From NCBI RefSeq assembly GCF_009696685.2, contig NZ_CP102355.1:1785501-1849500 (forward strand): 64,000 bases of DNA. Reading direction: 5' to 3'. This DNA is from Paracoccus sp. SMMA_5_TC. GTDB lineage: Bacteria; Pseudomonadota; Alphaproteobacteria; Rhodobacterales; Rhodobacteraceae. The notes under the pieces were generated by a model. It made no database searches and had not been told where the DNA came from. It was given only the letters and a program-made list of their open reading frames with translations. Positions 2,095-59,891 of the stretch are shown here, in pieces (position 1 is the stretch's first letter; the number at the start of each line of letters is the position of its first letter). A program made the translations under genes and the position numbers.

Positions 2095-2152
2095 CGCCCA
2101 ACCGAATCACCCAATTCCTGGCCCATGATTGCATCGCGTCATTGCCAAAGAC

Positions 2153-5455: not shown

Positions 5456-5482
5456 GCGCGGCGAAGGGCGAGCTGTCAAAGC

Positions 5483-40962: not shown

Positions 40963-41352
40963 CTAAGCGCGCCCGAACACCCGACCGGCCTGCTCCTGCC
41001 ATGTCTCCCCCGCCAGAAAGCACAGGTCGTAGAGGCTGACCGCCGACGCCTCGCGGCTGCAGGTCAGGCGCTTCAGCACCTCCGGCGCCAGATAGGCGAG
41101 GCGTAGCTGGCGGCTGACATGGCGTTCGGCCAGACCGACGGCCTCGGCCAGTTCCTGGATCGTGGCGAACTCGCCTGCCTCCATGCGCCGCCGCCAGCCC
41201 CATGCCCGGCCGATGGCGCGCAGGATGTGCGGGTCCTGCGTCTGATCCTCGCTCGGGCTGTAGTCAGCGGGCGGCATGATCTTGGGTCGCCCGTTCTTCT
41301 TGCGCAGCTTTAGGGGGATCAGCACGCGGATCGTGTCATTGCCTCGGGTCAT
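40963..41352 (-). CDS. ParB/KorB-like HTH protein of the recombinase operon
   Basis: A 129-residue protein whose central part, IQELAEAVGLAERHVSRQLR, is a ParB-type helix-turn-helix, followed by LAPEVLKRL typical of that group. It is last in the small protein / DUF2924 / recombinase series and overlaps the recombinase stop by an ATGA. A DNA-binding accessory role in integration or excision is inferred. Confidence 0.75.
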   Translation of the reverse strand: MTRGNDTIRVLIPLKLRKKNGRPKIMPPADYSPSEDQTQDPHILRAIGRAWGWRRRMEAGEFATIQELAEAVGLAERHVSRQLRLAYLAPEVLKRLTCSREASAVSLYDLCFLAGETWQEQAGRVFGRA

Positions 41353-42680
41353 TCGGCGGCCTCCATATCGCGTGGGGCGATCATCTCGCGGATGACGCCC
41401 GCGACGCCTTCGCGCCGGATGTCGACCTCGAGCCCGGCGGCGGTGACGGTGACGCGCCGGACCAGAAGCTGGATGATCCGCGCCTGCTCGAGCGGGAACA
41501 GCTGCGCCCAGAGCGTGTCGAAATCATGCAGCGCCGCGATTGCCTCGGCCTCGGACACCTGATCGCGCTTCAGCGCCGCCAGCACCTGCGTGACCACCTC
41601 GGGCGTCTGCAGAATGCGCCGGACTTCGGTGACGATGGCGTCCTCGACCATGCCCGCAGGCAGGCGGACCGGTGCTTGATCGCCGCCGCTGTCGTCCTCC
41701 GTGGTGCGGTTCTTGATCACGTCCATCGAGACGTAATAGCGGTAGAGCTTGCCGCGCTTCTTTGTCGCGGTCGGGGTCATGGCCGCGCCGGTATCGGTGA
41801 AGATCAGCCCCTTCAGCGGCGCGGGCGTCTGCATGCGGCTGTTGCTGGACCGGGCGTGGCGGTTGCCCTGCAGGATGGCGTCGACCTGATCCCAGACCTT
41901 GTCGGTGACGACGGCCTCGTGCTCGCCCGGATAGGCCTTGCCCTTGTGGACGGCCTCGCCGCGATAGACGCGATTGCGGAGCACCCGATAAAGGTAGCCC
42001 TTGTCGATCAGCGTGCCCTGCTTGCTGCGAAACCCTTCGCGCCGCAGTTCCTTCGCCAGCATCGTGGCCGAGCCGAGTTCGACGAACCGCTCGAAGATCC
42101 GGCGCACCGAGGCGGCCTCGTCCTCGTTGATCACCAGCTTGCGGTCCTGCACATCGTAGCCGAGCGGCACATAGCCCCCCATCCAGATCCCTCGCTTGCG
42201 CGAGGCGGCAACCTTGTCACGGATGCGTTCGCCGATGACCTCGCGTTCGAACTGGGCGAAGCTGAGAAGGATGTTCAACGTCAGCCGCCCCATCGACGTG
42301 GTCGTGTTGAAGGACTGCGTGACCGAAACGAAGGTGACCCCGTTGCGGTCGAAGACCTCGACCAGCTTCGAGAAATCCATCAGGGCGCGGCTGAGCCGGT
42401 CGATCTTGTAGACCACGACCACGTCGATCAGCCCGTCGTCGATGTCGGCCAGCAGCTGCTTCAGCCCCGGCCGGTCCAGATTGCCGCCCGAGAAGCCGCC
42501 GTCGTCGTAGCGGTCGCGAGTGGCGACCCATCCTTCGGATTTCTGGCTGGCGATATAGGCCTCGCAGGCTTCCCGCTGGGCGTCGAGGCTGTTGAATTCC
42601 ATGTCGAGCCCTTCCTCGCTCGACTTGCGGGTGTAGATGGCGCAGCGCAGGCGGCGGCCGGGGCGTGTGTTCATGTCCAT
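41349..42680 (-). CDS. Large serine recombinase (prophage integrase)
   Basis: A 443-residue serine recombinase. The catalytic domain has the nucleophile Ser in AIYTRKSSEEG and the conserved SLDAQREACEAYI and YKIDRLSRALMDF; a recombinase domain (EDEAASVRRIFERFVELG) and a coiled-coil-like C-terminus follow. The usual zinc-ribbon cysteines are absent: the site reads LIFTDTGAAMTPTATKKRGK. The ATG at 42680 is used because the longer frame runs into DUF2924. It is the only integrase-like gene in the accessory region, so it probably moves the prophage. Confidence 0.9.
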   Translation of the reverse strand: MDMNTRPGRRLRCAIYTRKSSEEGLDMEFNSLDAQREACEAYIASQKSEGWVATRDRYDDGGFSGGNLDRPGLKQLLADIDDGLIDVVVVYKIDRLSRALMDFSKLVEVFDRNGVTFVSVTQSFNTTTSMGRLTLNILLSFAQFEREVIGERIRDKVAASRKRGIWMGGYVPLGYDVQDRKLVINEDEAASVRRIFERFVELGSATMLAKELRREGFRSKQGTLIDKGYLYRVLRNRVYRGEAVHKGKAYPGEHEAVVTDKVWDQVDAILQGNRHARSSNSRMQTPAPLKGLIFTDTGAAMTPTATKKRGKLYRYYVSMDVIKNRTTEDDSGGDQAPVRLPAGMVEDAIVTEVRRILQTPEVVTQVLAALKRDQVSEAEAIAALHDFDTLWAQLFPLEQARIIQLLVRRVTVTAAGLEVDIRREGVAGVIREMIAPRDMEAAE

Positions 42681-42682
42681 GG

Positions 42683-43180
42683 TCAAACCTCCCGCGGTCG
42701 GACCTGCAGCCCGAAGAAGCGATAGCCGTTCCAGCGCACGCCGGTGATTTCCCGCGCGATGCCGGAGAGCGATTTGTATTTGCGGCCCTGCCACTCAAAA
42801 CCGTCCTTCAGCACGGTGATGGTGTGCTCGACCCCGTTCCATTCCCGGATCAGCCGCGTGCCAGCCACCGGATTGCGGGGATCCGCGATCTGGTTCTTGC
42901 GGCGGGAGACGCCCTCGACCTCGTCGGCAAGCAGGTCCAGCATGCGGCGGGTCTCGTGGTCGGGCCCGCCATAGGTCAGTTCCTGCAGGCGATAGGCGAT
43001 GCGGGCCTCAAGAAAGGCGCGGCTGTTGTTCGGTGCGGCGCTGCCGAGGAGCCGTTCCCATTCAGCCTTCAGCCCTTTCACCGACATGGCCTTGAGCGCG
43101 GCGATGCGCGACAGGACGCTTTGGTCCAGGCGCGCGTCCTGCCCGGGCTTGGGCGGCGATATCTTACTGTGATGCTTCAT
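42683..43180 (-). CDS. DUF2924 protein
   Basis: A 165-residue DUF2924 member: the helical AALKAMSVKGLKAEWERLLG, the GTRLIREWNGVEHTITVLKD beta segment and the C-terminal SLSGIAREITGVRWNGYRFFG are the family features. The ATG at 43180 has a very good GGAGGAATT leader. DUF2924 genes almost always precede this kind of recombinase in alphaproteobacteria, and a recombination accessory role is suspected but not shown. Confidence 0.88.
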   Translation of the reverse strand: MKHHSKISPPKPGQDARLDQSVLSRIAALKAMSVKGLKAEWERLLGSAAPNNSRAFLEARIAYRLQELTYGGPDHETRRMLDLLADEVEGVSRRKNQIADPRNPVAGTRLIREWNGVEHTITVLKDGFEWQGRKYKSLSGIAREITGVRWNGYRFFGLQVRPREV

Positions 43181-43412
43181 CAATTCCTCCGATGCGGATG
43201 CGTTTCCTGCGACGACCACCGCTCTTTCGGGGCGGGTAGTCCACGGAACTGTCTCCGTCGGCGGGCGATAAAGAACTGGACTTCCCGGCAGTCAGGCGAA
43301 CGACGCCTGCGGCGAGGATGCGACCCAACTCGGCAAGCCGGGCATCAGGGGACATCCGTTCAGGGCATAGAGGATTGGGCCCGGAAACCGGGTCTTCGGA
43401 GGGAATGGACAT
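43164..43412 (-). CDS. Small basic protein leading the recombinase operon
   Basis: An 82-residue protein with a short helical segment (MSPDARLAELGRILAAGVVRL) and a basic C-terminus (GGRRRKRIRIG). It overlaps the DUF2924 start by 17 bases, and an inverted repeat lies immediately upstream of its start. I do not recognise a named family; it is a usual member of this recombinase module. Confidence 0.7.
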   Translation of the reverse strand: MSIPSEDPVSGPNPLCPERMSPDARLAELGRILAAGVVRLTAGKSSSLSPADGDSSVDYPPRKSGGRRRKRIRIGGIDEASQ

Positions 43413-43578: not shown

Positions 43579-44511
43579 TCAACTCGTCCACCCGTCCATG
43601 AACTTGTCGTAGCTGTCGAGGATCGGCTCCTCCTCGAAGTCCCGACCATAGACGGCGTCGTCGAACTGCAAGATGGTCAGGGACAAGTCCAGAAACTCGG
43701 ACACCAATGCCAGTTCCCGCACTGGCTCGGACCCGCGACTGAAGTTCCAGACGCCAGCCGGTCGCTGGACCGGCCGGTCCGAGACAAATCCCCTCTCGTC
43801 GGCGCCGAGGGCAGCCAGCGCATCGTCAGGGATCTGCATGCCCGATCGCACGAAGATCCCGCTCTTGAGAGCAGACTTGCTGGCACGCCCCCACCTTGCG
43901 AAACCGTCACGCGCGACGATCATGACGGCCCGCCGGTCCGTGAAATCGATCCACTTCCGGCAGGCGGCCACCAGCGAAACGCCATAGCGATCAGTGATGT
44001 GGTTCAGAAGGTCGACGGTCATTTCTTCGCCGTTCACCTGCTCACGGTAGTCATCGAGCGGCATCAGCAGGTAGGAGGCGAAAGTGTCCGCCTCTTCCTC
44101 GCGTTGTCGTTCTGCCTCCTGCCAGGCATTCGGCAGCAGCGGTTTGCATTGAAAATCGCAATCGCGCTGGAGGGTTCCGCTCTTGTAATCCCGATCGGAC
44201 AGGATGGGGCGATGAAGTTGGTAGTGACCGAACTCATGCGCGATGGTGAAGCGAACGCGGCCGCGATACCGGGGGTCGTCGTTATAGACGATGTGCCATT
44301 CCGGGCGCTTTCGGTGCGGCCGGAGCATTCCCTCGAAACCCGGGAGCTCGCCACCCACGATTTTCCCGATCGGGTCCGCGTTGTTGCGGGAGACTTCTCG
44401 CGCCAGGGCTTCGACGTCGACCGGAAAGCGGTCTTCGCCCAGAACATGCCGGAGCATGATCGAGAGCCGGTTTGCCTCTTGCTGGGGAGATTTCTGCTTT
44501 CCGCTCGTCAT
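43579..44511 (-). CDS. ImmA/IrrE-family zinc metallopeptidase
   Basis: A 310-residue protein. The zinc motif HEFGH (about residues 92-96, in FTIAHEFGHYQLH) and the downstream glutamate helix EEEADTFASYLLMP are the family site. ImmA-type proteases cleave their cognate repressor when activated. The ATG at 44511 overlaps the repressor stop (TGATG). The C-terminal 130 residues are outside the known domain and may be the sensor. It pairs with the XRE gene upstream and sits in a phage-like control locus. Confidence 0.88.
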   Translation of the reverse strand: MTSGKQKSPQQEANRLSIMLRHVLGEDRFPVDVEALAREVSRNNADPIGKIVGGELPGFEGMLRPHRKRPEWHIVYNDDPRYRGRVRFTIAHEFGHYQLHRPILSDRDYKSGTLQRDCDFQCKPLLPNAWQEAERQREEEADTFASYLLMPLDDYREQVNGEEMTVDLLNHITDRYGVSLVAACRKWIDFTDRRAVMIVARDGFARWGRASKSALKSGIFVRSGMQIPDDALAALGADERGFVSDRPVQRPAGVWNFSRGSEPVRELALVSEFLDLSLTILQFDDAVYGRDFEEEPILDSYDKFMDGWTS

Positions 44512-44831
44512 CAATCGTCGTCCAAAGCATCCAGGATGCGTCGCAGGCGTTCTTTCTCCGGCGCCGCCATCTTCTTGTATTTTCTGAAGAAAGCTATGTC
44601 CTCGGCGTTTTCCTCTTCTTTTTCACCGTCACCGGCCAATAAGTACTCGACTGTGGTGTCGAGCGCGGTGGCGATCATGGCCAGCTTCTCGGCCGAGGGA
44701 CGAACGACTTCCTTGTTCTCTATTTCCCACATGTAGCTCTTGCTGGAGCCGACCCGCTCGGCGAGTCCCTCCAGGGTCAATCCGCGCTTTCGCCTCTGCT
44801 CGCGAACGCGCTCCCCTAGTGGTGTTGGCAC
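44511..44831 (-). CDS. XRE-family repressor
   Basis: A 106-residue repressor with an N-terminal helix-turn-helix (GLTLEGLAERVGSSKSYMWE) and a C-terminal helical dimerisation part rich in charged residues. The GTG start has an AAGGG leader. It is divergent from the DUF2188 gene, and the gap holds two GTTCG-N6-CGAAC palindromes. With the metallopeptidase it forms a repressor/protease switch like ImmR/ImmA of ICEBs1 and many lysogenic phages. Confidence 0.88.
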   Translation of the reverse strand: MPTPLGERVREQRRKRGLTLEGLAERVGSSKSYMWEIENKEVVRPSAEKLAMIATALDTTVEYLLAGDGEKEEENAEDIAFFRKYKKMAAPEKERLRRILDALDDD

Positions 44832-44853: not shown

Positions 44854-44869
44854 GTTCGTTTTTACGAAC
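44854..44869. promoter_or_regulatory. Operator 1 of the XRE repressor
   Basis: GTTCGTTTTTACGAAC is a perfect 6-bp inverted repeat in the GTTCG-N6-CGAAC format, 23 bases before the repressor start and just upstream of the rightward -35 box. Binding here would mainly affect the repressor's own transcription. Confidence 0.7.
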
Positions 44870-44878
44870 TTCTAGTCC

Positions 44879-44908
44879 TTGACACGCCATACGCGCAATC
44901 CCTATCTT
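44879..44908 (+). promoter_or_regulatory. Rightward sigma70 promoter
   Basis: A consensus -35 TTGACA (44879-44884) and -10 TATCTT (44903-44908) are separated by 18 bases. It lies between the two repressor operators and points to DUF2188 and the following unknown genes. Confidence 0.65.
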
Positions 44909-44916
44909 CTGCGCAG

Positions 44917-44932
44917 GTTCGCTACAACGAAC
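44917..44932. promoter_or_regulatory. Operator 2 of the XRE repressor
   Basis: GTTCGCTACAACGAAC repeats the GTTCG-N6-CGAAC format of operator 1, 63 bases away. It lies at the expected transcription start of the rightward promoter, so repressor binding would block it. Same length and same half sites as operator 1. Confidence 0.7.
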
Positions 44933-44967
44933 TTTGATTCCCGTTGAAACAAGACCTGGAGGCCAGA

Positions 44968-45207
44968 ATGGCTGTTGGAAAGAACCCGGGCACGCATCAC
45001 GTCGTGCCGAATGCAGAAGGCGGCTGGGATGTCCGCCGCGGTGGTGCGGCGCGCTCGAGCGGGCACTTTGATACCAAGCAGGACGCCGTCCAGCGTGCGC
45101 GCGAAATCAGCCGCAATGCGGATACCGAACTGAAGATCCACAATCGTGACGGACGGATTGCGCAGTCGGATTCGCACGGCAACGACCCCCGCAACATCAA
45201 GGGCTGA
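44968..45207 (+). CDS. DUF2188 protein
   Basis: A 79-residue protein of the DUF2188 family, recognised from HHVVPNAEGGWDVRRGGAAR and the C-terminal DGRIAQSDSHGNDP. Family function is unknown; the fold is a small beta-rich one. The ATG at 44968 has a GGAGG-like leader. It is the first gene under the rightward promoter; the next gene begins 14 bases on with its ribosome-binding site over this stop. Confidence 0.85.
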   Translation: MAVGKNPGTHHVVPNAEGGWDVRRGGAARSSGHFDTKQDAVQRAREISRNADTELKIHNRDGRIAQSDSHGNDPRNIKG

Positions 45208-45220
45208 GGAGATGTAAGAC

Positions 45221-46405
45221 ATGGCGTCGGTGACCAACTTCATCCGCAATACCCCGCTCGCGTCGCTGCGCGACTATTTCACTGCGACCGGGATCGAGTT
45301 TCCGACGCCCGTCAACTGGGATGCGCCTGAGCCGGAGGTCGTTCGGCCGCTGCTTCAGGCGGTCGATCAGATGGACGACGAAGCGCGCGGCCGCGTCATC
45401 AACGATGGTGAGCGCGTAGGCGCCATGGCAGATGTCGCGGGTCAGACGGCGCTCTACAGTGTTGTCGATGACCGGGAGGTCCTCGACGAGCTCGAAAATG
45501 GCCATGCCCGCGCCATGTGGCTGTTCATCAACGATCTGAACCGGTTTCGCCATGCGGAAGAGGTCCGTTTCACCGATGAGCGCCGCCGCGGGCGGAGCTG
45601 GGACGGCTTCATCTGCGAAGCGAACCTGAACCTCCGCCGCGACGAGCTCGCGCTCAACGCGTTCAAGGCGGCCCTGTGCCAGAGGTTTGCATCGCGGAAT
45701 GTTCATGTCGACATTTTCGAGCGCGTCCGTCCGACCTTCGAAGGTGAGGACTGCGATCTGATCCAGATCACGGTTTACCGCGAGGGCCTGCCAGACGATC
45801 AGTTCGCTTTCGACGAGGGCGAATTGGTGCGCCGCGCTTATCGGCCCGTCTTCGAGGCCGCGATGACCTATGAGCCCGCCTCCGGGGTCATCGAAGTCGT
45901 TGCCAATGATCGGGAGAGCCGCGCGGAGATGGCGCAGTATCTGGCCCGCGACCTGCTCGGCGTGGAATTCCGGGACGAGAAGGTGCCCATGCGGCGCTAT
46001 GATCTCGCGGTGCTGCTTGCGCCCCATGTGTTCCCGACTGACATCGAGGACGGGATCGAGCGGGTGGAAGTCCGGCAGCTCAGGCTCATGCCGATCGATG
46101 CCGTGGGTGAGCGCGTGACCTTGGAGGCGATGAGCAAGGCGGAACGCGACATCTGGGCAATGGCGGAGGCTCGTCTTGGCCCCGACAACCCCCTCACCGG
46201 CGGCTGGGTGGCGACGCAGGCGAAGCTCGTGATCAAGTTCCAGCCCAAGCCCGGGGCTCGGCGTGGTCGCACGCTGCCACTCACCATCACCATGCCGCAT
46301 GGCTGCAATCTCAAGGATCAGACGGAAGAGGAGCAGCTGATCGGCGAGAAGTATCTGCGCCGGTGGGGAGTTGTGGTCGATGACCCGATCCTCATCGACG
46401 ATTGA
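45221..46405 (+). CDS. Unrecognised 394-residue protein of the repressor-controlled cassette
   Basis: I do not recognise this family. The protein is acidic, mixed alpha/beta and soluble, with no signal peptide or membrane segment. Residues about 60-130 have a regular helical look (DDREVLDELENGHARAMWLF); the middle has FAFDEGELVRRAYRPVFEAA; the C-terminal third is beta-rich with KLVIKFQPKPGARRGRTLPL. No catalytic motif stands out. GAGGAGATG precedes the ATG. It overlaps the next gene by 26 bases, so the two are translationally coupled and probably act together. Confidence 0.75.
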   Translation: MASVTNFIRNTPLASLRDYFTATGIEFPTPVNWDAPEPEVVRPLLQAVDQMDDEARGRVINDGERVGAMADVAGQTALYSVVDDREVLDELENGHARAMWLFINDLNRFRHAEEVRFTDERRRGRSWDGFICEANLNLRRDELALNAFKAALCQRFASRNVHVDIFERVRPTFEGEDCDLIQITVYREGLPDDQFAFDEGELVRRAYRPVFEAAMTYEPASGVIEVVANDRESRAEMAQYLARDLLGVEFRDEKVPMRRYDLAVLLAPHVFPTDIEDGIERVEVRQLRLMPIDAVGERVTLEAMSKAERDIWAMAEARLGPDNPLTGGWVATQAKLVIKFQPKPGARRGRTLPLTITMPHGCNLKDQTEEEQLIGEKYLRRWGVVVDDPILIDD

Positions 46406-47366
46406 CGAACGGTCTGCCCGGCTTTTCGTCAGCATCGTAGAGACGAAAAGCGCGCGCATCGCCGGGGCTGTCCTTCACGACTATCACGCGGCCAGCGCCA
46501 CTCCTTTGATCGGCGCTGGTCTCTTGGTGCCGGACGCTCCGGTTCCAGTTGCCACCTCTTTGGTTGACCATGAGGACGAGCCAGTAAATCTGGAATGGTC
46601 GCCAGAGCAGCGCGCCTACGGGTATTTCAGCCCGGCAGCGGGATGGGTAACCGTCGACAGCGAACGCCTTCAGGTATTCCGCTTCGATGCCAACGCGTTC
46701 ATTGGTCGGCTGACATCTCGCCTTGACTTGCCGCGCTCCGCCCGTCCGGCAGAACGCATTCCGGGCCATCTATGGGAGTTGGGCGACGTCAGACTGCCCG
46801 GGCGCGGTGCCCGTGTCCCAATCTGGTATGCGAGACGGCTGACGGATCGCGAGACCTGGCAGCAGGTCGTCAACTACCTCGGGGGGCGTCCGCCCGCAGA
46901 TTTCAGGGTGGTGGTGACCAGCTCGGCGACCCGTGATCTCGCAGAGGCGGACTTGTCCCGGCATCAGTTCATTGCATTGGGGGATCTGGAATCTGGCAGT
47001 GCGGCGCTGGTCATCGAGCCAACATATCTGGCCGCCCAGCTGAAGGCCGGCGCGGCGACCCATGCAGGCGATCCCGTGCGCCACGCCGCTGGGTTCCGTC
47101 ATCTGTGGGTGGGCGAACGGGAGTTCAAGTTTGGCGGCGACAAGAGGCGGCAAATTGTCGAGTACCTCTTCAACGCATGGGACGGTGGCGAGGAGAGCGT
47201 CAGCACAGAAGTCATGTTTGCCGATCTCGAATACGATGTCTCAAGCCGCATGCGGGATATCTTCAAGGGCCACCCCGATTGGCGCGATCTGATCGAGACG
47301 ACGGGGGGATCCTGTCGGCTGCGCATCAGGGAGCTTCTGGAGGCCGATAGTCCTAACGCCGATTGA
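46380..47366 (+). CDS. Unrecognised 328-residue protein with a C-terminal winged-helix-like part
   Basis: I do not recognise this family. The N-terminal 190 residues are mixed alpha/beta (RSARLFVSIVETKSARIAGA at the start, ERIPGHLWELGDVRLPGRGA in the middle). The last 90 residues (FKFGGDKRRQIVEYLFNAWD to WRDLIETTGGSCRLRIRE) have the helix-turn-helix plus wing pattern of a DNA-binding domain. The ATG at 46380 lies inside the preceding gene; a TTG at 46371 is also possible. The 3' end overlaps the convergent toxin gene by 14 bases. Confidence 0.72.
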   Translation: MTRSSSTIDERSARLFVSIVETKSARIAGAVLHDYHAASATPLIGAGLLVPDAPVPVATSLVDHEDEPVNLEWSPEQRAYGYFSPAAGWVTVDSERLQVFRFDANAFIGRLTSRLDLPRSARPAERIPGHLWELGDVRLPGRGARVPIWYARRLTDRETWQQVVNYLGGRPPADFRVVVTSSATRDLAEADLSRHQFIALGDLESGSAALVIEPTYLAAQLKAGAATHAGDPVRHAAGFRHLWVGEREFKFGGDKRRQIVEYLFNAWDGGEESVSTEVMFADLEYDVSSRMRDIFKGHPDWRDLIETTGGSCRLRIRELLEADSPNAD

Positions 47367-48390
47367 TTGCGTCCTCGGCGACCCGAAGTTGTTCCATGAT
47401 CCAGTCGAAAGGCGGCACCTCGCCGAGCATCATGCCCTGCATCGCGGCATAGTCCTCCTCGATCGCCGCGCGCAACTCGGCGGTCGGTACGACGCAGATC
47501 GAGCCTGGCGTGGCGTCTTCGAATTTCTTCCATGCCTGCCTGAAAGCGATGAGGTTGTGTTCGCGCACGGCCGCAAGCAGCCCGTCGTCGGCCAGGGCAG
47601 CGCGCCCAATCTGCGTGCCGGTGATCATGGCGACGTCATAGTAGTGGCGGGAAATCCTGTCGCTGTCGGCAGGCACACGTCCTTCGTCACGATGACCGCA
47701 GAACGCGCCGTGCAAAATCAGAAGTTTCTCCAGGTAGGTGCGCTGCGGAGCAATAACATGGACGTTGTCGACTGCGAATGACCATCCGTCGGTCAGTTCC
47801 TCTGCGATATAGGGGGTCACGCTGGCGGTCTCGTTGGGATCGAGCGCCGAGCGTGCGCCTGCTTCGAGCTTCACGCGTGGCAGGACGTAGGAGATCTCGG
47901 TGCTTGGATAGAGCGTCGGGTACTCGATCAGCAGAGTTTGCTGATCGCTGTCCTCATCGTCGGGCGCGATGCTGCAACGCGCATCGAGCAGCGGCTTCAG
48001 CGCTTCTGCCAGATCACCGCGAATATAGGAGCTGCAGGCGTCCTTCAGGTCATCGAACAGCGCCTTGCGCTTCTTGTTCGAAATACCCTCGGGGTTCGTC
48101 GGGTCGCGTTCGGCCGCGAAGCCGAGACCATCCCGGTAAACGACAAGATCGATGTCCTCCGAGAAGCGGCGGATGAGCCCATAGGCCTTGGATAACGCCG
48201 TCCCGCCCTTGAACAGGAGTTGCGGGTGGCCGTCAGGCAAGCGTTTGTAGAGCGCGTCCAGCACGAAGCAGACCCAGAAATCCTTCTCGACATAGCTCGG
48301 AAGCGTGTCGAGGCGGTCAGCAGCCGCCTCGAATACGTCCTTCTGGTCGCGAGCTGAAAGCGCGAGAAACCGCGTATAGCTCTCGCTCAT
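47353..48390 (-). CDS. AbiEii-type nucleotidyltransferase toxin
   Basis: A 345-residue DNA-polymerase-beta-like nucleotidyltransferase of the AbiEii/AbiGii family. The motif FKGGTALSKAYGLIRRFSED with GGTALSK at residues 62-68 and SEDIDL at 77-82 is the diagnostic active site. AbiEii toxins modify nucleic acids or tRNA and stop growth on phage infection. Its ATG overlaps the antitoxin stop in ATGA, the usual coupling of a type IV toxin-antitoxin pair. Confidence 0.9.
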   Translation of the reverse strand: MSESYTRFLALSARDQKDVFEAAADRLDTLPSYVEKDFWVCFVLDALYKRLPDGHPQLLFKGGTALSKAYGLIRRFSEDIDLVVYRDGLGFAAERDPTNPEGISNKKRKALFDDLKDACSSYIRGDLAEALKPLLDARCSIAPDDEDSDQQTLLIEYPTLYPSTEISYVLPRVKLEAGARSALDPNETASVTPYIAEELTDGWSFAVDNVHVIAPQRTYLEKLLILHGAFCGHRDEGRVPADSDRISRHYYDVAMITGTQIGRAALADDGLLAAVREHNLIAFRQAWKKFEDATPGSICVVPTAELRAAIEEDYAAMQGMMLGEVPPFDWIMEQLRVAEDAINRR

Positions 48391-49064: not shown

Positions 49065-49170
49065 GAATTCAATTCCTCCCCGAACGTACCCCTTTCGCCT
49101 CCCCGGCGCCTCCCACCCCCTCCGCCATGTTGAACCCGCAAGTGTTCGCAGAAATCCCAAGGAGGTTCAC

Positions 49171-49380
49171 ATGGCGACCAGGCACCTTTCCCAGATCGAG
49201 CTGGCGGCTCGCTGGAACATTTCGCACCGCACGCTGGAGCGCTGGCGGTGGACGGGCGAAGGCCCGAAATTCATCAAGCTCGGCGGCCGGGTGATCTACC
49301 GGCTCGAGGATGTCGAGGCCTTCGAGGCCGAACAGATCCGCGGCGTGGATCACGAACCCCATCGTCCGATGTCGGCGTGA
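49171..49380 (+). CDS. Small HTH (excisionase/AlpA-like) protein
   Basis: A 69-residue MerR-type helix-turn-helix protein: LSQIELAARWNISHRTLERW, then KLGGRVIYRLEDVEAFE, the AlpA/excisionase pattern. A strong AAGGAGG leader precedes the ATG. As first gene of the rightward prophage early region it may be an excisionase partner of the serine recombinase or an early regulator. Confidence 0.85.
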   Translation: MATRHLSQIELAARWNISHRTLERWRWTGEGPKFIKLGGRVIYRLEDVEAFEAEQIRGVDHEPHRPMSA

Positions 49381-49391
49381 GGGGGCGGAAC

Positions 49392-49877
49392 ATGACGATC
49401 TCCAACCACATCACCCTAGCCGATATCCACCGCATGCCGGTGGGCCAGATCGCGGCGCTGCCCGCCGATCATCTCGCGCTGCTGAAAGGCGCGGCGGACG
49501 AGCAGCTGACGCAGGCGAAGTCGGTCGCGGACTGGCTCGACGGCGCCATCTCTCTCAAATACGCCGACCGCGCCCAGGACACCCGCCAGGAGGCGGGCAA
49601 GGACACCGGCACGATCCGGTTCGAGGATGACGGCGTCACCGTGATCGCCGAACTGCCCAAGCGCATCGACTGGGATCAGGCGTTGCTGGCGCAGATCGCC
49701 GAGAACATCGCCTCGGCGGGCGAGGACCCCGCGGAATTCATCGAAACCAAGCTGTCGGTCTCCGAGCGCAAATACGGCGCATTGCCGGAAAGCTGGCGCA
49801 AGGGCTTCGAGCCCGCGCGCACGGTCCGCGCCGGCAAGCCGAAGTTCCGCCTCGTGCTGAACGAGGAGGTGCGCTGA
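49392..49877 (+). CDS. Phage hypothetical protein
   Basis: A 161-residue soluble protein with a helical N-terminal half and a C-terminal beta-rich half (TIRFEDDGVTVIAELPKRID). The ATG at 49392 begins 11 bases after the previous stop, and its own stop overlaps the next start in ATGA-like fashion. No family recognised; it is conserved in position before the Sak4-like ATPase in related prophages. Confidence 0.7.
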   Translation: MTISNHITLADIHRMPVGQIAALPADHLALLKGAADEQLTQAKSVADWLDGAISLKYADRAQDTRQEAGKDTGTIRFEDDGVTVIAELPKRIDWDQALLAQIAENIASAGEDPAEFIETKLSVSERKYGALPESWRKGFEPARTVRAGKPKFRLVLNEEVR

Positions 49878-50623
49878 TGGCCATTTCGCTCGCGTCCCTG
49901 CGCACGACCTCGGTGCTGACCCCGCCGCGCATCCTGATCCACGGCGTGGCCGGGGTGGGCAAATCCACCTTCGCGGCCGATGCCGACCGGCCCGTCTTCC
50001 TCATGACCGAGGATGGCCTGGGCAAGCTGCAGGTGCCGCATTTCCCGCTCGCGACCAGTTATGCGGAGGTGGCCGAGGCGCTTGATGCGCTCTCGAACGA
50101 GGACCACGATTTCGGCACGGTCGTCGTCGACAGCGTCGACTGGCTGGAGCCGCTGATCTGGGCCGAGGCCTGCAAGCGCAACGGCTGGGCCTCGATCGAG
50201 GCGCCGGGGTTTGGCAAGGGCTATGCCGAGGCGCTGACCATCTGGCGCGAATATCTCGACCGGCTCAACGCGCTTCGCGACCGCAAAGGCATGGTGGTCA
50301 TCCAGATCGCCCATACCGACATCAAGCGTTTCGACAGCCCCGAACACGAGCCCTACGACCGCTATGTGATCAAGCTGCAGACCCGCGCCTCGGCGCTGCT
50401 GCAGGAGCATTCGGACGTGGTGCTCTTCGCCAACTATCAAATCTCGGTCGCGAAATCCGATGTCGGCTTCAACAAGAAGGTGACCCGGGCGCTCGGGTCC
50501 GGTGCGCGCGTCATGCACACCGAAGAGCGTCCCGCCTTCCTCGCCAAGAACCGTTACGGCCTGCCGGACACCCTGCCGCTGATGTGGTCGGAGTTCCTCG
50601 CGGCCATGCCCCAATCCCAATGA
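49877..50623 (+). CDS. Sak4-like RecA-fold ATPase (single-strand annealing)
   Basis: A 248-residue AAA_24/RecA-like ATPase. Walker A is GVAGVGKSTFA, Walker B FGTVVVDSVDWLE, and a sensor-like QIAHTDIKRF follows. Phage Sak4 proteins are RecA-core single-strand annealing proteins that need a cognate SSB; the next gene is exactly such a DUF669 protein. It likely drives recombination-dependent replication of the prophage. Confidence 0.85.
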   Translation: MAISLASLRTTSVLTPPRILIHGVAGVGKSTFAADADRPVFLMTEDGLGKLQVPHFPLATSYAEVAEALDALSNEDHDFGTVVVDSVDWLEPLIWAEACKRNGWASIEAPGFGKGYAEALTIWREYLDRLNALRDRKGMVVIQIAHTDIKRFDSPEHEPYDRYVIKLQTRASALLQEHSDVVLFANYQISVAKSDVGFNKKVTRALGSGARVMHTEERPAFLAKNRYGLPDTLPLMWSEFLAAMPQSQ

Positions 50624-50642
50624 ACTGAACAAGGACAAGACC

Positions 50643-51143
50643 ATGGCACGTTTCGACACGTCCTTCGACGCCACCAGCGTCGAGCCCACCACCGCCTACG
50701 AGCTGCTGCCCGCAGGCAAATACCGCGCCCAGATCGTAGAGAGCGAGATGCGCGTCACGAAGAACGGCATGGGTCAGTTCCTCTGGCTGATGCTCGACAT
50801 CCTCGAGGGCGAGCACAAGGGCCGGAAGATCTTCGACCAGCTGAACCTGGTGAACCCGAACCCGACGACGGTGGAGATCGCGCAGCGCACGCTCTCGGCG
50901 ATCTGCCATGCCACGGGCCGGATGCATGTCAGCGACAGCGAGGAGCTGCACCTGATCCCGATGACGATCCAGGTGAAGATCCGGCCGCCGAAGAACGGCT
51001 ACGGCGAGAGCAACGCGATTGCCTATCTGCCGCCCGAGCGGGGTTCGGCCCCGGCCGCCCGTCCGGCGAAGCCCGAGCCCGATCCGGCCAGCTCTTCGGT
51101 GCCGCCGAAAATGGCCTCCGCGCCCTGGAACAAGAAGGGCTGA
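50643..51143 (+). CDS. DUF669 phage single-stranded DNA-binding-like protein
   Basis: A 166-residue DUF669 protein with the family core ELLPAGKYRAQIVESEMRVT and WLMLDILEGEHKGRKIFDQL. DUF669 proteins act as SSB-like partners of Sak4 or UvsX-like ATPases. The C-terminal 45 residues are Pro/Ala-rich and end KMASAPWNKKG, a flexible tail like the one SSB proteins use for protein contacts. Confidence 0.85.
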   Translation: MARFDTSFDATSVEPTTAYELLPAGKYRAQIVESEMRVTKNGMGQFLWLMLDILEGEHKGRKIFDQLNLVNPNPTTVEIAQRTLSAICHATGRMHVSDSEELHLIPMTIQVKIRPPKNGYGESNAIAYLPPERGSAPAARPAKPEPDPASSSVPPKMASAPWNKKG

Positions 51144-51207
51144 GTACCCGCGCTGGCCTGCGCCCTGACTGACGGGGCAGCGCGAAACCCCATCTGAGGA
51201 TACTCCC

Positions 51208-51570
51208 ATGACTGACATGACCAACGCGGCCCCTGCGGCTGCGACCAGCCCCGGCTTGCCTGATGATCAGCGCCGATTGATCGAGCTCGACGATGCCATC
51301 GCCAAGATCCGCACGCAGATCGCGACGGCAGATCTGGCCCGCCAGCGCGGCCAGAAGCCGATCGATCCGGACTGGTTCCACCGGGCCCGCACGGCGCTCC
51401 GCCACCTGTGCCGCGAACGCGCGGAACTGCTCGCCCAAGGCACCGGCCGCCGTCGCCGCGAAAAGCTCAAGGACGCTCTGATCGGCATCCTGCGCGAACG
51501 CCATGACCCCGAGACCTGGGATGGCATTTTGGCAGAGGCGCAGGCCCGCAGTGAACGGGAGGGCCTGTGA
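51208..51570 (+). CDS. Small helical phage protein
   Basis: A 120-residue protein that is mostly alpha-helical and coiled-coil-prone (RRLIELDDAIAKIRTQIATA). No family recognised. It overlaps the start of the exonuclease gene by 4 bases, so it may be co-translated with it. Confidence 0.65.
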   Translation: MTDMTNAAPAAATSPGLPDDQRRLIELDDAIAKIRTQIATADLARQRGQKPIDPDWFHRARTALRHLCRERAELLAQGTGRRRREKLKDALIGILRERHDPETWDGILAEAQARSEREGL

Positions 51571-52574
51571 TGGCAGAACTTCCCGAAGCCCCCACGCCGA
51601 CGCTGACGGCGATCTATGCCGATTATGAATCCCGCCAGGGCGATGGTTTCCGCGATCACCTCGGCGCATCGATCATCGGCAAATCCTGCGCACGGGCGCT
51701 CTGGTATGATTTCCGCTGGGTGACGCCCGCGCGCCATTCCGGCCGCCTGCTGCGCCTTTTCGAGACGGGCCAGCTGGAGGAGGACCGGCTCGTGCGCAAC
51801 CTGCGTGCCACCGGGGCGACCGTGCTTGAGGTCGATCCCGAGACCGGCCGCCAGTTCCGGGTCGAGGCCCATGGCGGGCATTTCGGTGGATCGCTCGATG
51901 GCGTGGCCCTCGGGCTCCTGGAGGCGCCCAAAACCTGGCATGTGCTGGAGTTCAAGACCCATGGGGTCAAGAGCTTCACCGAACTGACCTCCAAGGGCGT
52001 CGTTCTGGCCAAGCCCCAGCATGCCGCGCAGATGCAGATCTACATGCACCTGACAGGCATCACGCGCGCCCTCTACGTCGCGGTCTGCAAGGACACCGAC
52101 GCGCTGCATGTCGAGCGCATCGAGGCGGACCGCGCCATGGCCGAGCGCCTCTTGGAAAAGGCCGGGCGCATCATCTTCGCCCAGCATCCGCCCCCGCGGA
52201 TCAGCGAGGATCCGGCCTGGTTCGAATGCCGGTTCTGCGATCACCATGCGGCCTGCCATGACGGCGGTGGCGCTGCGGTGACCTGCCGGTCCTGCCTGCA
52301 TGCGACGCCCGTCGGAGCGCTTCCAGAAGAAGTGGATACCGGTTCTTCGTCCGGAAGCGCGACCAGCAAGAACTTCGGTGGTTGGCATTGCGCCCGCCAC
52401 GACCGGATGCTGGCGCCTTCCGAGCAACGCGCCGCCTGCGGCCGCCATCTCTTCATCCCCGATCTCATCCCGGGCGAGGTCATCGATGCGGGCGACGATG
52501 TCGTCACCTACCGCATGGCCGATGGCACGACCTGGACCAACGACGCCCGTTCCCCGGAGGTCGCGCCATGCTGA
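51567..52574 (+). CDS. PD-(D/E)XK exonuclease (RecB-like)
   Basis: A 335-residue Cas4/RecB-type nuclease. The catalytic set is in GGHFGGSLDGVALG and the lysine in VLEFKTHGVKSF; QMQIYMHLTGI is the downstream QxxxY motif. The C-terminal cysteines (CRFCDHHAACHDGGGAAVTC with CRSC) probably hold a zinc or Fe-S site. It supplies 5'-end resection for the Sak4/DUF669 annealing pair. Its last 7 bases overlap the helicase start. Confidence 0.85.
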   Translation: MMAELPEAPTPTLTAIYADYESRQGDGFRDHLGASIIGKSCARALWYDFRWVTPARHSGRLLRLFETGQLEEDRLVRNLRATGATVLEVDPETGRQFRVEAHGGHFGGSLDGVALGLLEAPKTWHVLEFKTHGVKSFTELTSKGVVLAKPQHAAQMQIYMHLTGITRALYVAVCKDTDALHVERIEADRAMAERLLEKAGRIIFAQHPPPRISEDPAWFECRFCDHHAACHDGGGAAVTCRSCLHATPVGALPEEVDTGSSSGSATSKNFGGWHCARHDRMLAPSEQRAACGRHLFIPDLIPGEVIDAGDDVVTYRMADGTTWTNDARSPEVAPC

Positions 52575-54304
52575 CCCTGCGCCCCTATCAACAGGCCGCG
52601 ATCACCGCGATCTACGGCTATTTCCAGACCCACACCGGCAATCCGCTGGTGGTCATTCCGACCGCGGGCGGCAAGTCGCTGGTCATGGCGTCCTTCATCG
52701 AGGGTGTGCTGAAGGCCTGGCCCGATCAGCGCATCCTGATCGTGACCCATGTCCGCGAGCTGATCGCGCAGAACCACGCCGAGATGATCGGCCTCTGGCC
52801 CGAAGCGCCCTCGGGCATCTATTCGGCGGGCCTCGGCAAGCGCGAGGCGCAGGCGCGGATCCTCTTCGCCGGTATCCAGTCGATCCACCGCCGCGCGGGT
52901 GAGATCGGCCACACCGATCTGGTGCTGATCGACGAGGCGCATCTGATCCCCGGCAAGTCGAGCACGATGTATCGGCGCTTCCTCGACGCGCTGAAGGCGA
53001 TCAACCCGGCGCTCAAGGTGATCGGGCTGACCGCCACGCCGTTCCGGCTCGATTGCGGGATGCTGCACGAGGGGCAGAACGCGCTCTTCACGAACATCGC
53101 CTACGAGGCCCCGGTCCGCGAGCTGATCGACGCGGGGTATCTGAGCCCTCTGGTCTCGAAACAGCCTGCAACCCGGCTCGACGTCTCGAAGGTGGGCACC
53201 CGCGCAGGCGATTTCATTGCCCGCGATCTGGCGGCGGCGGTCGATCAGAACGCCATCACCCGCGCGGCCGTCGCCGAAATCATCGCGCATGGCCGTGACC
53301 GGAAATCCTGGCTGGCCTTCTGCTCGGGCGTCGAGCATGCGCGCCATGTGGCCGAGGAGTTCGACCGCCAGGGCATCAGTTGCCGCACGATCTTTGGCGA
53401 CACGCCGAAGGACGAGCGCGATGCGATCCTTGCCGCCTTCAAGCGCGGAGAAATCCGGGCGCTCGCCTCGATGGGCGTGCTGACCACCGGCTTCAACGCG
53501 CCCGGTGTCGACCTGATCGCGCTCCTGCGTCCCACCCAATCGGCCGGGCTCTATGTGCAGATGGTCGGGCGCGGCACCCGTCTCGCGCCGGGCAAGGAGA
53601 ACTGCCTGGTGCTGGACTTCGCCGGCAATGTCCGTCGCCATGGGCCGATCGATCTGGTGCGGCCCAAGCGCCCCGGTGACGGCGGCGGGGGTGAGGCGCC
53701 GACCAAGGTCTGCCCGGAGTGCGACAGCATCATCGCGCTCTCGGCGACGGAATGCCCCGATTGCGGCTATGTCTTCCCGGCGCGCGAGGTGAAGATCGCC
53801 CCCACGGCCGCCACGCTGCCGGTGCTTTCGCCAAAGCAGCAATGGCTCCCGGTCACGGGCGTTTTCTACAGCCGCCACGACAAGGCTGGCGGCCGTCCGT
53901 CGCTCAAGGTGACCTATAGCTGCGGCCTTGCCACCTACAGCGAATGGGTCTGCCTCGAGCATCAGGGCTATGCCCGCCAAAAGGCGGCCGAGTGGTGGCG
54001 CAAGCGCGCGCCCGGCTGCCCCGTGCCGCTGAGCGTGGCCGAGGCCCTCGCGCAGACGAGCCGCCTTGCGTGTCCCACCGACATCTCGGTCCGCCCCTCG
54101 GGCCGCTATCTTGAGATCTCCGGTTACAGGTTCGCCCCATGCGCCTATCCGACCCCGGCCTCTGCGCCGTCTGCCACCGGGAACCTCGCGGCTTTGGCTG
54201 GTTCGAGCCGGGGTTCCGCCGCACCGACCCGCGGCGCGACGCCAGCCGCAAGCGGCTCTGCAGCCGCGCCTGTCAGGACCTCTGCCATGGGAGGAAGGGC
54301 ATGA
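52568..54304 (+). CDS. DEAD/DEAH superfamily 2 helicase
   Basis: A 578-residue SF2 helicase. Walker A is PTAGGKSLVMASF, the DEAH box is LVLIDEAHLIPG, motif III lies in IGLTATPFRLD and motif VI in QMVGRGTRLAPGKENCLV. A C4-type zinc ribbon (CPECDSIIALSATECPDCGY) follows. The last 55 residues are Ser/Ala/Pro-rich, run into the next gene for 166 bases and look unlike the rest, as if an earlier stop (near 54139) had been lost. It works in phage replication. Confidence 0.85.
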   Translation: MLTLRPYQQAAITAIYGYFQTHTGNPLVVIPTAGGKSLVMASFIEGVLKAWPDQRILIVTHVRELIAQNHAEMIGLWPEAPSGIYSAGLGKREAQARILFAGIQSIHRRAGEIGHTDLVLIDEAHLIPGKSSTMYRRFLDALKAINPALKVIGLTATPFRLDCGMLHEGQNALFTNIAYEAPVRELIDAGYLSPLVSKQPATRLDVSKVGTRAGDFIARDLAAAVDQNAITRAAVAEIIAHGRDRKSWLAFCSGVEHARHVAEEFDRQGISCRTIFGDTPKDERDAILAAFKRGEIRALASMGVLTTGFNAPGVDLIALLRPTQSAGLYVQMVGRGTRLAPGKENCLVLDFAGNVRRHGPIDLVRPKRPGDGGGGEAPTKVCPECDSIIALSATECPDCGYVFPAREVKIAPTAATLPVLSPKQQWLPVTGVFYSRHDKAGGRPSLKVTYSCGLATYSEWVCLEHQGYARQKAAEWWRKRAPGCPVPLSVAEALAQTSRLACPTDISVRPSGRYLEISGYRFAPCAYPTPASAPSATGNLAALAGSSRGSAAPTRGATPAASGSAAAPVRTSAMGGRA

Positions 54305-54525
54305 TCGATCCGACCCCGAATGAGACCGAGGCCATGGCCAAAGGCGGCCAGATGGGCGGCGAATATCTTGAGAGCATCGGCAAGTCCGACCTCGCGACCC
54401 TGTCCGAGGAGGAATGGGCCCGGTTTCTCGATGCCGTCGTCACCGGCTATTGCGACCACCTGCGTGCGCTGGCGGCGAAGGATCGCAGCCGGCTCGACGC
54501 GATGGCGCCGGAGGTGCCGTTCTGA
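54139..54525 (+). CDS. DUF6511 domain phage protein
   Basis: A 128-residue protein with an N-terminal CAVCHREPRGFGWFEP and CSRACQDLC zinc-finger-like pairing, typical of DUF6511, and a C-terminal helical part (EEEWARFLDAVVTGYCDHLR). It starts inside the helicase frame and ends where the primase begins (the TGATGG junction), so it is part of the tightly packed early operon. Confidence 0.75.
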   Translation: MRLSDPGLCAVCHREPRGFGWFEPGFRRTDPRRDASRKRLCSRACQDLCHGRKGMIDPTPNETEAMAKGGQMGGEYLESIGKSDLATLSEEEWARFLDAVVTGYCDHLRALAAKDRSRLDAMAPEVPF

Positions 54526-56798
54526 TGGCCGACACGTCCTGGATGGCGCGCTTCGGCGCGCGGCTCGTCACCAATGGCTATGCCATCCTGCCGATCGGCC
54601 CGGGCACCAAGAAGCCCGGCCGGTTCCAGCGCGGCGGCTGGGCCGATTACCCGGAATGGAACCGCCATGCCGAACGCCCGACCACGGAGGTCGAGGTCGC
54701 GACCTGGGCTGCGTGGCCCGATTGCGGCATCGGCATCGTCGGTGGAGCGGTAGCGGCGGTCGATATCGACATCGCGGCGGACGCCGAACTGGCGTTGCAG
54801 ATCGAGGCGCTGGCCCGGGCGCGCCTCGGCGACACGCCGGCACTGCGCATCGGCCGCGCTCCGAAGCGCATGCTGGTCTATCGCACGGCAGCGCCGTTTC
54901 GGGGCATCAAGCGCCATCCGCTCGAGGTGCTCTGCCTCGGGCAGCAGTTTCTGGCCTATGCCGACCACCCCGATACCGGCGCGCCCTATGTCTGGCCCGA
55001 CGAGGGTCTGGCCGATCTCGATATCAGCGACCTTCCGGAAATCACGGCGGAAGCAGCGGAGGCCTTTCTCGACCAGGCCTATGCGACCCTGCCCGAGGCC
55101 CTGCGCCAGCGCGGGCTGCGATCGGCAACACCGGCCACACTGCTGCGCAACCACGGGCAGATCGGCACCTTGCCCGCCATCCGGTCGGCGCTCGACTGGC
55201 TGCCGAATGACGAGCTCGATTACGACAGCTGGATGCGCATCGGCATGGCGCTGAAGGGCGCGCTTGGCGATGAGGGCGGCGAGGTCTTTGCCACCTGGTC
55301 GGCACAGGCGGCCAAGGATGTGCCCGCGACCACGGCCCGCGCCTGGGCGAGCTTCAAGCCCGACCGGATCGGCGCGGGCACGATCTACCACCTCGCCATG
55401 GAGCGTGGCTGGCAGCCCGACGCCGCCTTGCGCCTCGATGGCAGCCTCGATCCGGACGGCCCGCATCCGGCCGCCGATCTGCTGGCCCGGCTGGAGGGGA
55501 GCGCGCCGACCGTCGCCGATCCGGAAAAGCCCGCCTTCAGCCTGACCATCCCCGATGGTCTCGTCGGGGATCTGACCGGCTACATGCTGGCCACAGCGCG
55601 CCGCCCACAGCCGCTTCTGTCGCTCGGGGCCAGCCTCTGCGCCATCGGCGCGCTGATGGGGCGGCGGTATCGCACCACCAGCAATCTTCGCTCGAACCTC
55701 TATGTCGTGGGGATTGCTGACAGCGGCTCGGGCAAGAACCACGCCCGCGAGATCATCAACGAGGTCTTCTTCGAGGCGGGTCTCGCCCACCATCTCGGCG
55801 GCAACAAGATCGCCTCCGGCGCCGGGCTCCTGACCGCGCTCCACCGCCAGCCGGCGATCCTGTTCCAGATCGACGAATTCGGGATGTTCCTGTCGGCCGC
55901 CGCTGACCGCAAGCGCAGCCCGCGCCACATCACCGAGATCCTCGACAACATGACCGAACTCTTCACGGCCGCGGGCGGGATCTTCCTCGGGGCGGAATAT
56001 GCGAACCGAGACGGCACCAATGAGCGGCGCGACATCAACCAGCCCTGCCTTTGCGTCTATGGCACCACGACGCCGCTGCATTTCTGGGGCGCGCTGCAGG
56101 GGGCAAACGTGGTCGATGGCTCGCTCGCGCGCTTTCTGATCCTGCCGAGTGATGAGGACTATCCGGACGAGAACCTCGCCGTCGGCATCCGGCGAGCCCC
56201 GCCCGCGCTGATCCAGGCGCTCCAGCTGGTCGCCAAAGGCGGCGGGGCCGTGAAGGGCAACCTGACCGGCAAGACCGCCGATCAGAACACCGCCGTGAAC
56301 CCGATGACCGTGCCGATGTCGGACGCAGCAAGGGCCCGGTTTGCCGAACTCAGCGACGCCCTGACCGAGGAGCTGCGGGCAGCGGCCGGCACCGCCTTCA
56401 CTGCCATTCTCGCCCGCATCGGAGAGAACGCGCTGAAGCTGGCGCTGATCGTCGCTGTCGGGCGCGATCCCGTGCGCCCCGAGATCGACATTACCGCGGC
56501 GGATTGGGCCATCGGCTTCGTGCGCCATTACGCGCGGCGCACCATGGAGGCGGTCGAGCGCCATGTGGCGGATACCGAAACCGAGGCGCATCTGAAGCGG
56601 CTGAAGGAGATCGTCCGCGCGGCCGGGCCCAAGGGGATCACCAAATCCGACATCACCCGCGCCTCCCAATGGTTGAAATCGCGCGACCGCGACGAAATCC
56701 TGCTGACGCTGATCGAGAGCGGCGACATTACCACCGGCATGCGCGGCTCCTCGACCAAGCAGGCCATGGTCTACCGGATGGCGCGGTGGGGCGGGTGA
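54525..56798 (+). CDS. Primase-polymerase/helicase
   Basis: A 757-residue replication protein. N-terminal Prim-Pol domain (residues about 10-190) with the metal-site AVDIDIAADAEL; a PriCT-type helical domain (LDWLPNDELDYDSWMRIGMA); then an ATPase/helicase part with Walker A GIADSGSGKNHA and Walker B AILFQIDEFGM, resembling DUF3987. The ATG at 54525 abuts the DUF6511 stop. It can prime and probably unwind DNA at the nearby repeat cluster, so it is the likely initiator of phage replication. Confidence 0.85.
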   Translation: MADTSWMARFGARLVTNGYAILPIGPGTKKPGRFQRGGWADYPEWNRHAERPTTEVEVATWAAWPDCGIGIVGGAVAAVDIDIAADAELALQIEALARARLGDTPALRIGRAPKRMLVYRTAAPFRGIKRHPLEVLCLGQQFLAYADHPDTGAPYVWPDEGLADLDISDLPEITAEAAEAFLDQAYATLPEALRQRGLRSATPATLLRNHGQIGTLPAIRSALDWLPNDELDYDSWMRIGMALKGALGDEGGEVFATWSAQAAKDVPATTARAWASFKPDRIGAGTIYHLAMERGWQPDAALRLDGSLDPDGPHPAADLLARLEGSAPTVADPEKPAFSLTIPDGLVGDLTGYMLATARRPQPLLSLGASLCAIGALMGRRYRTTSNLRSNLYVVGIADSGSGKNHAREIINEVFFEAGLAHHLGGNKIASGAGLLTALHRQPAILFQIDEFGMFLSAAADRKRSPRHITEILDNMTELFTAAGGIFLGAEYANRDGTNERRDINQPCLCVYGTTTPLHFWGALQGANVVDGSLARFLILPSDEDYPDENLAVGIRRAPPALIQALQLVAKGGGAVKGNLTGKTADQNTAVNPMTVPMSDAARARFAELSDALTEELRAAAGTAFTAILARIGENALKLALIVAVGRDPVRPEIDITAADWAIGFVRHYARRTMEAVERHVADTETEAHLKRLKEIVRAAGPKGITKSDITRASQWLKSRDRDEILLTLIESGDITTGMRGSSTKQAMVYRMARWGG

Positions 56799-58290: not shown

Positions 58291-58580
58291 AATGTTGCAA
58301 CACTTTGATCTTCGACAGCTGCAACAGATCCGTGCTATCTGAAGGATATGATGGGGAGAGTGCGTCGGAAGACGGCTCTCCCCGTTTCCGTTCGCGCGGA
58401 CCCGCGACAGCAGGGCCGCAGCGGAGCGCATTTCCCTGAAATCGGCGGGTCCTTCCCGGCGTCCATCCTATGCGGGCGGGCGAAGCGCGAGGGTTTCCCA
58501 GTGACGCCCCTGAAAATAGCCGTTTCGTTTCGCTTGGGGCCTCGCGGCAACGAGCGAAGGGCCTGACAGCCCGACACCCC
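58291..58580. other. Intergenic region with TGTTGCAACA palindrome
   Basis: A perfect 10-bp palindrome TGTTGCAACA (58293-58302) is followed by a CTGCAACAG half site around 58319-58327. A 72-residue open frame (58348-58566) with an AAGGAT leader is present, but the protein looks unstructured and I do not call it. The palindrome may control the methyltransferase genes. Confidence 0.4.
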
Positions 58581-59888: not shown

Positions 59889-59891
59889 GGG

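Follow-up and report, generated by a model that had tools for sequence, protein, structure and literature searches.

What does a repressor of the kind that guards bacterial immune operons hold in check when it faces two genes of no assigned family? The question is raised by a locus of Paracoccus sp. SMMA_5_TC (Alphaproteobacteria, Rhodobacteraceae), a bacterium with a genome of 3.1 Mb, within a stretch of 64,000 nucleotides of contig NZ_CP102355.1 (positions 1,785,501 to 1,849,500, assembly GCF_009696685.2) that we call the window. A first-pass annotation made from the letters alone had described a minus-strand XRE repressor and an ImmA/IrrE-type metallopeptidase facing a DUF2188 gene and two coupled genes for proteins of 394 and 328 residues, and gene calls together with Pfam and PADLOC matches agree with this arrangement (Table 1). 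We favour, as the probable answer, a two-step prophage induction switch: the protease CapP would cleave the repressor CapH, the 394/328 pair would be released, and the 328-residue protein would activate the excision and replication genes of the prophage.

The cassette is the immunity region of a tailed prophage and lies between a serine recombinase and a recombination and replication operon. The recombinase, the early genes, a terminase and a tail gene are all present, with the small and large terminase subunits, a tape-measure protein and a peptidase encoded further right, partly outside the window. An attachment-site search returned two 14-base matches only, which were not accepted as att sites. 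To place the locus among its relatives, the 394-residue family was searched by profile, with 148 relatives coming from genome contigs and 171 from viral ones. These sets overlap; the best 80 of each were retained, and loci were treated as duplicates when their 394-type proteins shared 100 identical residues in a row. All counts given here cover these best relatives, and the profiles were built from the same loci on which they were run. Of 98 distinct loci whose downstream sequence extends for 7 kb or more, 86 have phage early genes there, and recombinase or DUF2924 genes occur in 56 of the 92 loci with 5.5 kb upstream. The earlier idea of a lysogeny switch re-used to hold off a payload thus gives way to that of the prophage's own switch, and the stand-alone defence cassette was dropped as the best reading in view of the prophage context.

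The two proteins form a conserved pair. Of 195 distinct loci that are long enough to tell, 190 have a 328-type gene adjoining the 394-type gene; among the genome loci the partner was found in 78 of 80, one of the others being cut by a contig end (L048) and one giving no match (L058). In the window the two genes overlap by 26 bp. The pair follows the switch more than it follows the replication genes, because a 394-type gene stands, among the best matches listed, in 75 of 79 viral loci gathered with the CapP profile (L166 not tallied), against 3 of 80 helicase loci in which one was recognised among the best matches listed, many of these loci being short. Among 385 genomes drawn from the class, 8 have a member of the 394-residue family, two of these through weak partial matches; among 299 from the phylum, other classes included, the number is 24. 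Both counts include this genome. The first-pass annotation could assign neither protein, and this judgement stands: neither has a significant Pfam, NCBIfam or PADLOC match, a PDB sequence search with both gave nothing convincing (best E 0.22 and 2.9), tblastn against INPHARED phages returned no relatives at 1e-5, and literature searches among open-licence papers showed no title or abstract opening that describes the pair. In PLSDB one plasmid matched (39%), and a library of viral structures yielded two siphovirus proteins (E<=0.001), both of unknown function. On the margins of the family, a 768-residue open frame beside a serine recombinase and a DUF2924 gene (L396:1177-3483) has a partial 394-type match and may be a fusion or a remote relative. 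A possible remote quartet of HTH, M78, 409-residue and 388-residue proteins (L330) was suggestive only, with hhalign probabilities of 27 and 17 and no clear array, and was rejected.

Upstream of the pair, the controllers are swappable and of the damage type. Among 154 distinct loci with 2 kb upstream, the 394-type gene is preceded by a divergent CapH and M78 protease in 109, by a helix-turn-helix (HTH) and M78 couple on the same strand in 33, by an S24 protein in 4 and by no recognised controller in 8. The neighbourhood survey proposed in the first-pass annotation therefore finds the pair travelling with an M78 protease and its HTH partner in 142 of 154 loci. The S24 proteins of L451, L452, L453 and L455 are Pfam-confirmed and LexA-like, and the HExGH motif of CapP (H92, E93, H96) is invariant in 17 aligned sequences. 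DUF2188 was recognised in 47 of the 154 loci. A PADLOC scan of 10 proteins between 39.8 and 49.0 kb found no CD-NTase or Cap effector, and no CBASS core protein was matched. Other combinations were also seen. In L450 (6786-7859), one of the eight loci just mentioned, an HTH-WYL-WCX protein replaces CapH/CapP before a 394-type gene, and no 328-type gene was recognised; 394-type genes lie beside UmuC-like polymerase and S24 (UmuD-like) frames, named by eye, in L455 and L458; and L255, L256 and L257 hold CapH and CapP with neither a 394-type gene nor recognised phage early genes.

The first-pass annotation had placed the promoter between two GTTCG-N6-CGAAC palindromes. Both are exact, they are the sole two exact copies in the whole 64 kb, and they are likely CapH operators. 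With one mismatch allowed, the window holds 7 palindromes against 2.9 expected, a number reached by 3 of 100 shuffles; the consensus promoter itself is not above chance in the region (1 found, 1.4 expected). Among loci with the gene start present and 400 bp or more of upstream sequence, 94 of 131 distinct CapH-type loci have an exact palindrome no further than 520 bp ahead of the 394-type gene, against 0 of 61 others (0 of 46 with the other HTH and M78 arrangement, 0 of 15 remaining), and the motif therefore goes with CapH. Shuffled upstream regions gave it in 9 of 13,100 cases. Palindrome 2 sits 304 bp ahead of the 394-residue gene; in the 94 loci the distance is 300-319 bp in 32 and 100-139 bp in 51, and two copies, as in the window, occur in 6 of the 131.

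What the pair would do once released is suggested by its second member. The model of the 328-residue protein by AlphaFold2 (AF2; pLDDT 83.4) shows an N-terminal domain of its own and a C-terminal winged helix of PhoB/OmpR type, at about residues 225-320. Structure comparison and a sequence match both back this assignment, giving a family to what had first been called winged-helix-like. PhoB/OmpR response regulators likewise carry a C-terminal winged helix, but here the receiver is missing (the protein has no Response_reg match), an unassigned N-terminal domain takes its place, and the 394-residue gene stands where the kinase would be. Locus L319 has the receiver: there the same winged helix (4e-17) belongs to a REC response regulator whose gene follows that of a histidine kinase. 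On proteins with yet another N-terminus it is found in L309 (4e-11) and, facing an S24 repressor, in L314 (4e-5), and in all three loci the winged-helix gene is followed by the conserved early gene c14 and the same early operon. The L319 set, an SMC-like ATPase, a HEAT/GHKL histidine kinase and the receiver-winged-helix regulator (1806-5653), stands where the CapHP cassette would be; when viral sequences were scanned with its regulator, 3 loci were found, including that contig itself.

Response regulators of the PhoB/OmpR family bind direct-repeat boxes of about 11 bp, and a direct-repeat array with steps of 11-12 bp lies upstream of the early operon. In the window its units start at 49073, 49085, 49096 and 49107, and one is degenerate. 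In relatives it comes after the 328-type gene and before the excisionase-like gene, and it is perfect in L049 and L196, for example; in the window an AbiE pair lies between the 328-residue gene and the array, the latter keeping its place beside the early operon. With upstream regions de-duplicated by their similarity, an 11-12-bp array was significant (p<=0.05) in 53 of 60 mutually dissimilar regions, with a median score of 0.83, whereas six control step pairs reached significance in 11, 4, 5, 2, 3 and 3 of 60. Autocorrelation peaks at lags 11-12, 23 and 34; five control regions without a recognised winged helix, three of which (L074, L160, L395) do have a 328-type gene, gave no lag-11 peak and a z of 3 at lag 12. 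When whole loci were scanned with their own repeat core, exactly one array of at least 3 units appeared in 10 of 12, and 50 shuffles of five whole-scanned loci yielded none. Where the cassette is inverted (L441), the interval from capP to the excisionase-like gene, still ahead of the early operon, contains eight repeat copies, of which four form a perfect array. On the strength of this repeat evidence, the 328-residue protein is likely a transcription factor rather than a toxin. A search for enriched words from the 328-type gene to c14 returned for the most part pieces of the small HTH gene's coding region and was discarded.

The sequence of the array also tracks that of the winged helix across loci (Mantel r 0.42, n=102, loci with array score >=0.65). 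Controlling for the 394-type protein, the 328 N-terminus or c14 leaves partial r values of 0.26-0.53 (p 0.001-0.004), against -0.11 to 0.26 for these three given the winged helix; among these converse values the 394-type protein ranks highest, in the set with the fewest loci (n=20, p 0.049), and c14 has the lowest p, 0.035. The excisionase-like protein is disfavoured as the binder of the array, since controlling for it leaves partial r at 0.40-0.60 (p 0.001), whereas the protein itself, given the winged helix, reaches 0.02-0.07 (p at least 0.08). Because such co-variation is what a binding site should show, we predict that the array is the site of the 328-residue winged helix.

The 394-residue protein is the near-constant partner of this regulator and matches phrog_37634 (function unknown; 1.3e-83). 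Its AF2 model (pLDDT 81.5), built like the other on a shallow alignment (Neff 1.9 for the 394-residue protein), has CENP-N, CENP-L and RdgC as top fold matches by Foldseek and VIA, without sequence support. Membership of the RdgC family was rejected, with no match to Pfam PF04381 and an hhalign probability of 0.2, inside the 0.1-13.3 of 13 control profiles; no RdgC match was found in this genome or in 60 relatives, E. coli being positive among 14 controls. Since its gene takes the position that the histidine kinase holds in L319, the protein may gate the 328-residue protein through the N-terminal domain of the latter, in the manner of a sensor and its response regulator; alternatively, it may act on DNA.

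These elements can be assembled into a sequence of events. In the lysogen, CapH would sit on the palindromes around the divergent promoter and keep DUF2188 and the pair off. As PMC13373217 describes for other CapH and CapP pairs, single-stranded DNA activates CapP, which cleaves CapH; by analogy, the same event here would free the promoter. The 394/328 pair would then be made, the winged helix would bind the 11-12-bp array upstream of the excisionase-like gene, and the array-bound protein would turn on the excision, recombination and replication operon. A more specific version, which we regard as tentative and on balance doubtful, makes the pair a new 'two-component' prophage system without phosphorelay. 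In it the 394-residue protein, as a prokaryotic relative of the kinetochore CENP-N/CENP-L fold that binds DNA, would stand in for the sensor kinase, the 328-residue protein would have exchanged its receiver for a domain that its partner gates, and the two together would read the state of the DNA and fire the early promoter.

Several known systems come close to this design. ICEBs1 and related elements are under ImmR/ImmA, a repressor and M78 protease switch that controls a mobile element as here; the present locus differs in the conserved two-protein relay, with its predicted binding array, that lies between the switch and the element genes. In the SXT/R391 elements, as PMC4542580 relates, inactivation of the repressor SetR by damage releases the two-gene activator SetCD, which acts at sites that overlap the -35 region to switch on genes of the element, those for excision among them. 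The logic is alike, and it is by logic only, not by sequence, that the two were compared: SetR is a self-cleaving S24 protein and SetCD are relatives of FlhCD, whereas here the parts are CapH paired with a protease, a winged helix of PhoB type and a partner whose model resembles CENP-N/RdgC. In CBASS, Bub and other immune operons an HTH repressor and M78 protease also adjoin the operon that they control (PMC13373217), but here the same couple stands in a prophage immunity region and faces a regulatory pair and phage early genes.

A number of observations weigh against the two-step induction switch. The window array is imperfect, scoring 0.69 with an 8-base and 0.71 with a 7-base core, and a strict whole-locus scan found no array in the window or in L003. 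Seven of the 60 upstream regions missed significance, and 16 of the 60 do not exceed 0.71, the best value among 13 early-operon loci without the winged helix; two of the 65 stretches taken from these 13 loci beat all 15 shuffles. The best array of L314 differs in core and place. As for the co-variation, the loci share ancestry, only clear-array loci entered, and partial Mantel tests are optimistic. The exact palindrome is absent from 37 of 131 CapH-type loci, and in 12 of 98 loci no same-strand early genes were recognised. Finally, the position of the array fits activation and repression alike, and in the 33 of 154 loci with the HTH and M78 genes upstream on the same strand the pair could therefore be co-transcribed with the repressor in the lysogen.

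The last two points are those on which the strongest alternative is built, namely that the 328-residue protein binds the array to repress the early operon, as a second lock or as a shut-off after induction, with the same-strand type expressing the pair in the lysogen. We consider this unlikely. In the CapH type (109 of 154 loci) the pair lies behind the candidate operator and is therefore expected to be absent in the lysogen and to appear on induction, and the receiver version of L319 fits signal-triggered activation, though response regulators can repress. Less likely again is a module for DNA transactions, in which the 394-residue protein would be an RdgC/CENP-N-like clamp that limits RecA or steers phage recombination, loaded by the winged helix. 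The predicted fold would suit such a role, the next operon is a Sak4/exonuclease recombination module, and ICEBs1 makes the RecA modulators RamT and RamA (PMC11841131); yet RdgC profile similarity is absent, the early module is common without the pair in the helicase loci listed, many of them short, and the array co-variation points to a regulatory target. Very improbable is a prophage-borne defence or abortive-infection effector silenced as in CBASS and Bub operons, for although CapH/CapP and CapW control immune operons (PMC13373217), DUF2188 is the PADLOC candidate PDC-S16 and AbiE is a close neighbour, the pair matched no toxin or enzyme family, phage early genes follow it in most loci, and the winged helix and array imply a regulator. 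Of the first-pass suggestion of a phage-defence or element-induction effector, the induction half agrees with the prophage switch and its array, and the defence half is opposed by the downstream early genes.

Table 1. Features of the prophage immunity region and early operon, in window coordinates
Feature	Position	Strand	Basis
Large serine recombinase (prophage integrase)	41349..42794	-	Pfam Resolvase 7.7e-39, Recombinase 6.8e-15
DUF2924 protein, recombinase neighbour in related loci too	42683..43219	-	Pfam 2e-50
CapP-type M78 (ImmA/IrrE) metallopeptidase	43579..44514	-	PADLOC capP 3.3e-60; Pfam M78 2.2e-13
CapH-type XRE repressor	44511..44831	-	PADLOC capH 1.5e-27; HTH_31 2.8e-12
Palindrome 1, GTTCG-N6-CGAAC, upstream of -35, candidate CapH operator	44854..44869	.	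Exact match
Sigma70-like promoter, TTGACA-N18-TATCTT	44879..44908	+	Sole exact match of the pattern in the window
Palindrome 2, GTTCG-N6-CGAAC, just past -10, main candidate CapH operator	44917..44932	.	Exact match
DUF2188 protein, PADLOC candidate PDC-S16	44968..45207	+	Pfam 3.3e-22; PADLOC
394-residue protein (A1)	45221..46405	+	AF2, Foldseek and VIA, phrog_37634
328-residue protein (A2)	46380..47366	+	AF2 model, winged-helix matches
Four-unit direct-repeat array, predicted binding site of the 328-residue protein	49073..49114	+	Steps 12, 11, 11; units TTCCTCCC, CGTACCCC, CGCCTCCC, CGCCTCCC
Small excisionase-like HTH gene, first after the array	49171..49380	+	phrog_66 'excisionase and transcriptional regulator' 3.2e-8
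Conserved early phage gene c14	49392..49877	+	phrog_2480 (function unknown), 2.7e-33
Early operon overall	49877..56798	+	PHROG and Pfam on the window's own proteins
Sak4-like AAA_24 protein, early operon	49877-50623	+	PHROG/Pfam
DUF669, early operon	50643-51143	+	PHROG/Pfam
Cas4-domain exonuclease, early operon	51567-52574	+	PHROG/Pfam
Helicase, early operon	52571-54304	+	PHROG/Pfam
Primase, early operon	54522-56798	+	PHROG/Pfam

The DUF2188 frame opens at 44944, and its probable ATG at 44968 was picked by eye. The AbiEii/AbiEi type IV toxin-antitoxin pair (47353-49010) is inserted between the 328-residue gene and the array; it occupies the same place in some related loci and is absent from most. 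A protein matching the PADLOC candidate PDC-S36 (442 bits) is encoded at 38902-39738, beside a tRNA-Ser gene. Near the left end of the prophage, a GHKL-ATPase protein, with HATPase_c, phrog_3364 and a weak DrmA match, lies at 39811-40815; CapK of the CapK and CapS couple is a GHKL kinase as well (PMC13373217). The prophage further contains genes for a ParB/N6-N4 methyltransferase and a C5-cytosine methyltransferase (58470-61073).

With this locus, two unassigned protein families gain a testable job, and a DNA site is predicted for one of them. CapH and CapP, known as controllers of immune operons, are placed at the heart of a prophage switch, which bears on whether bacterial immune controllers came from phages. 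If real, the match of the 394-residue protein to an inner-kinetochore fold would add a prokaryotic example of it.

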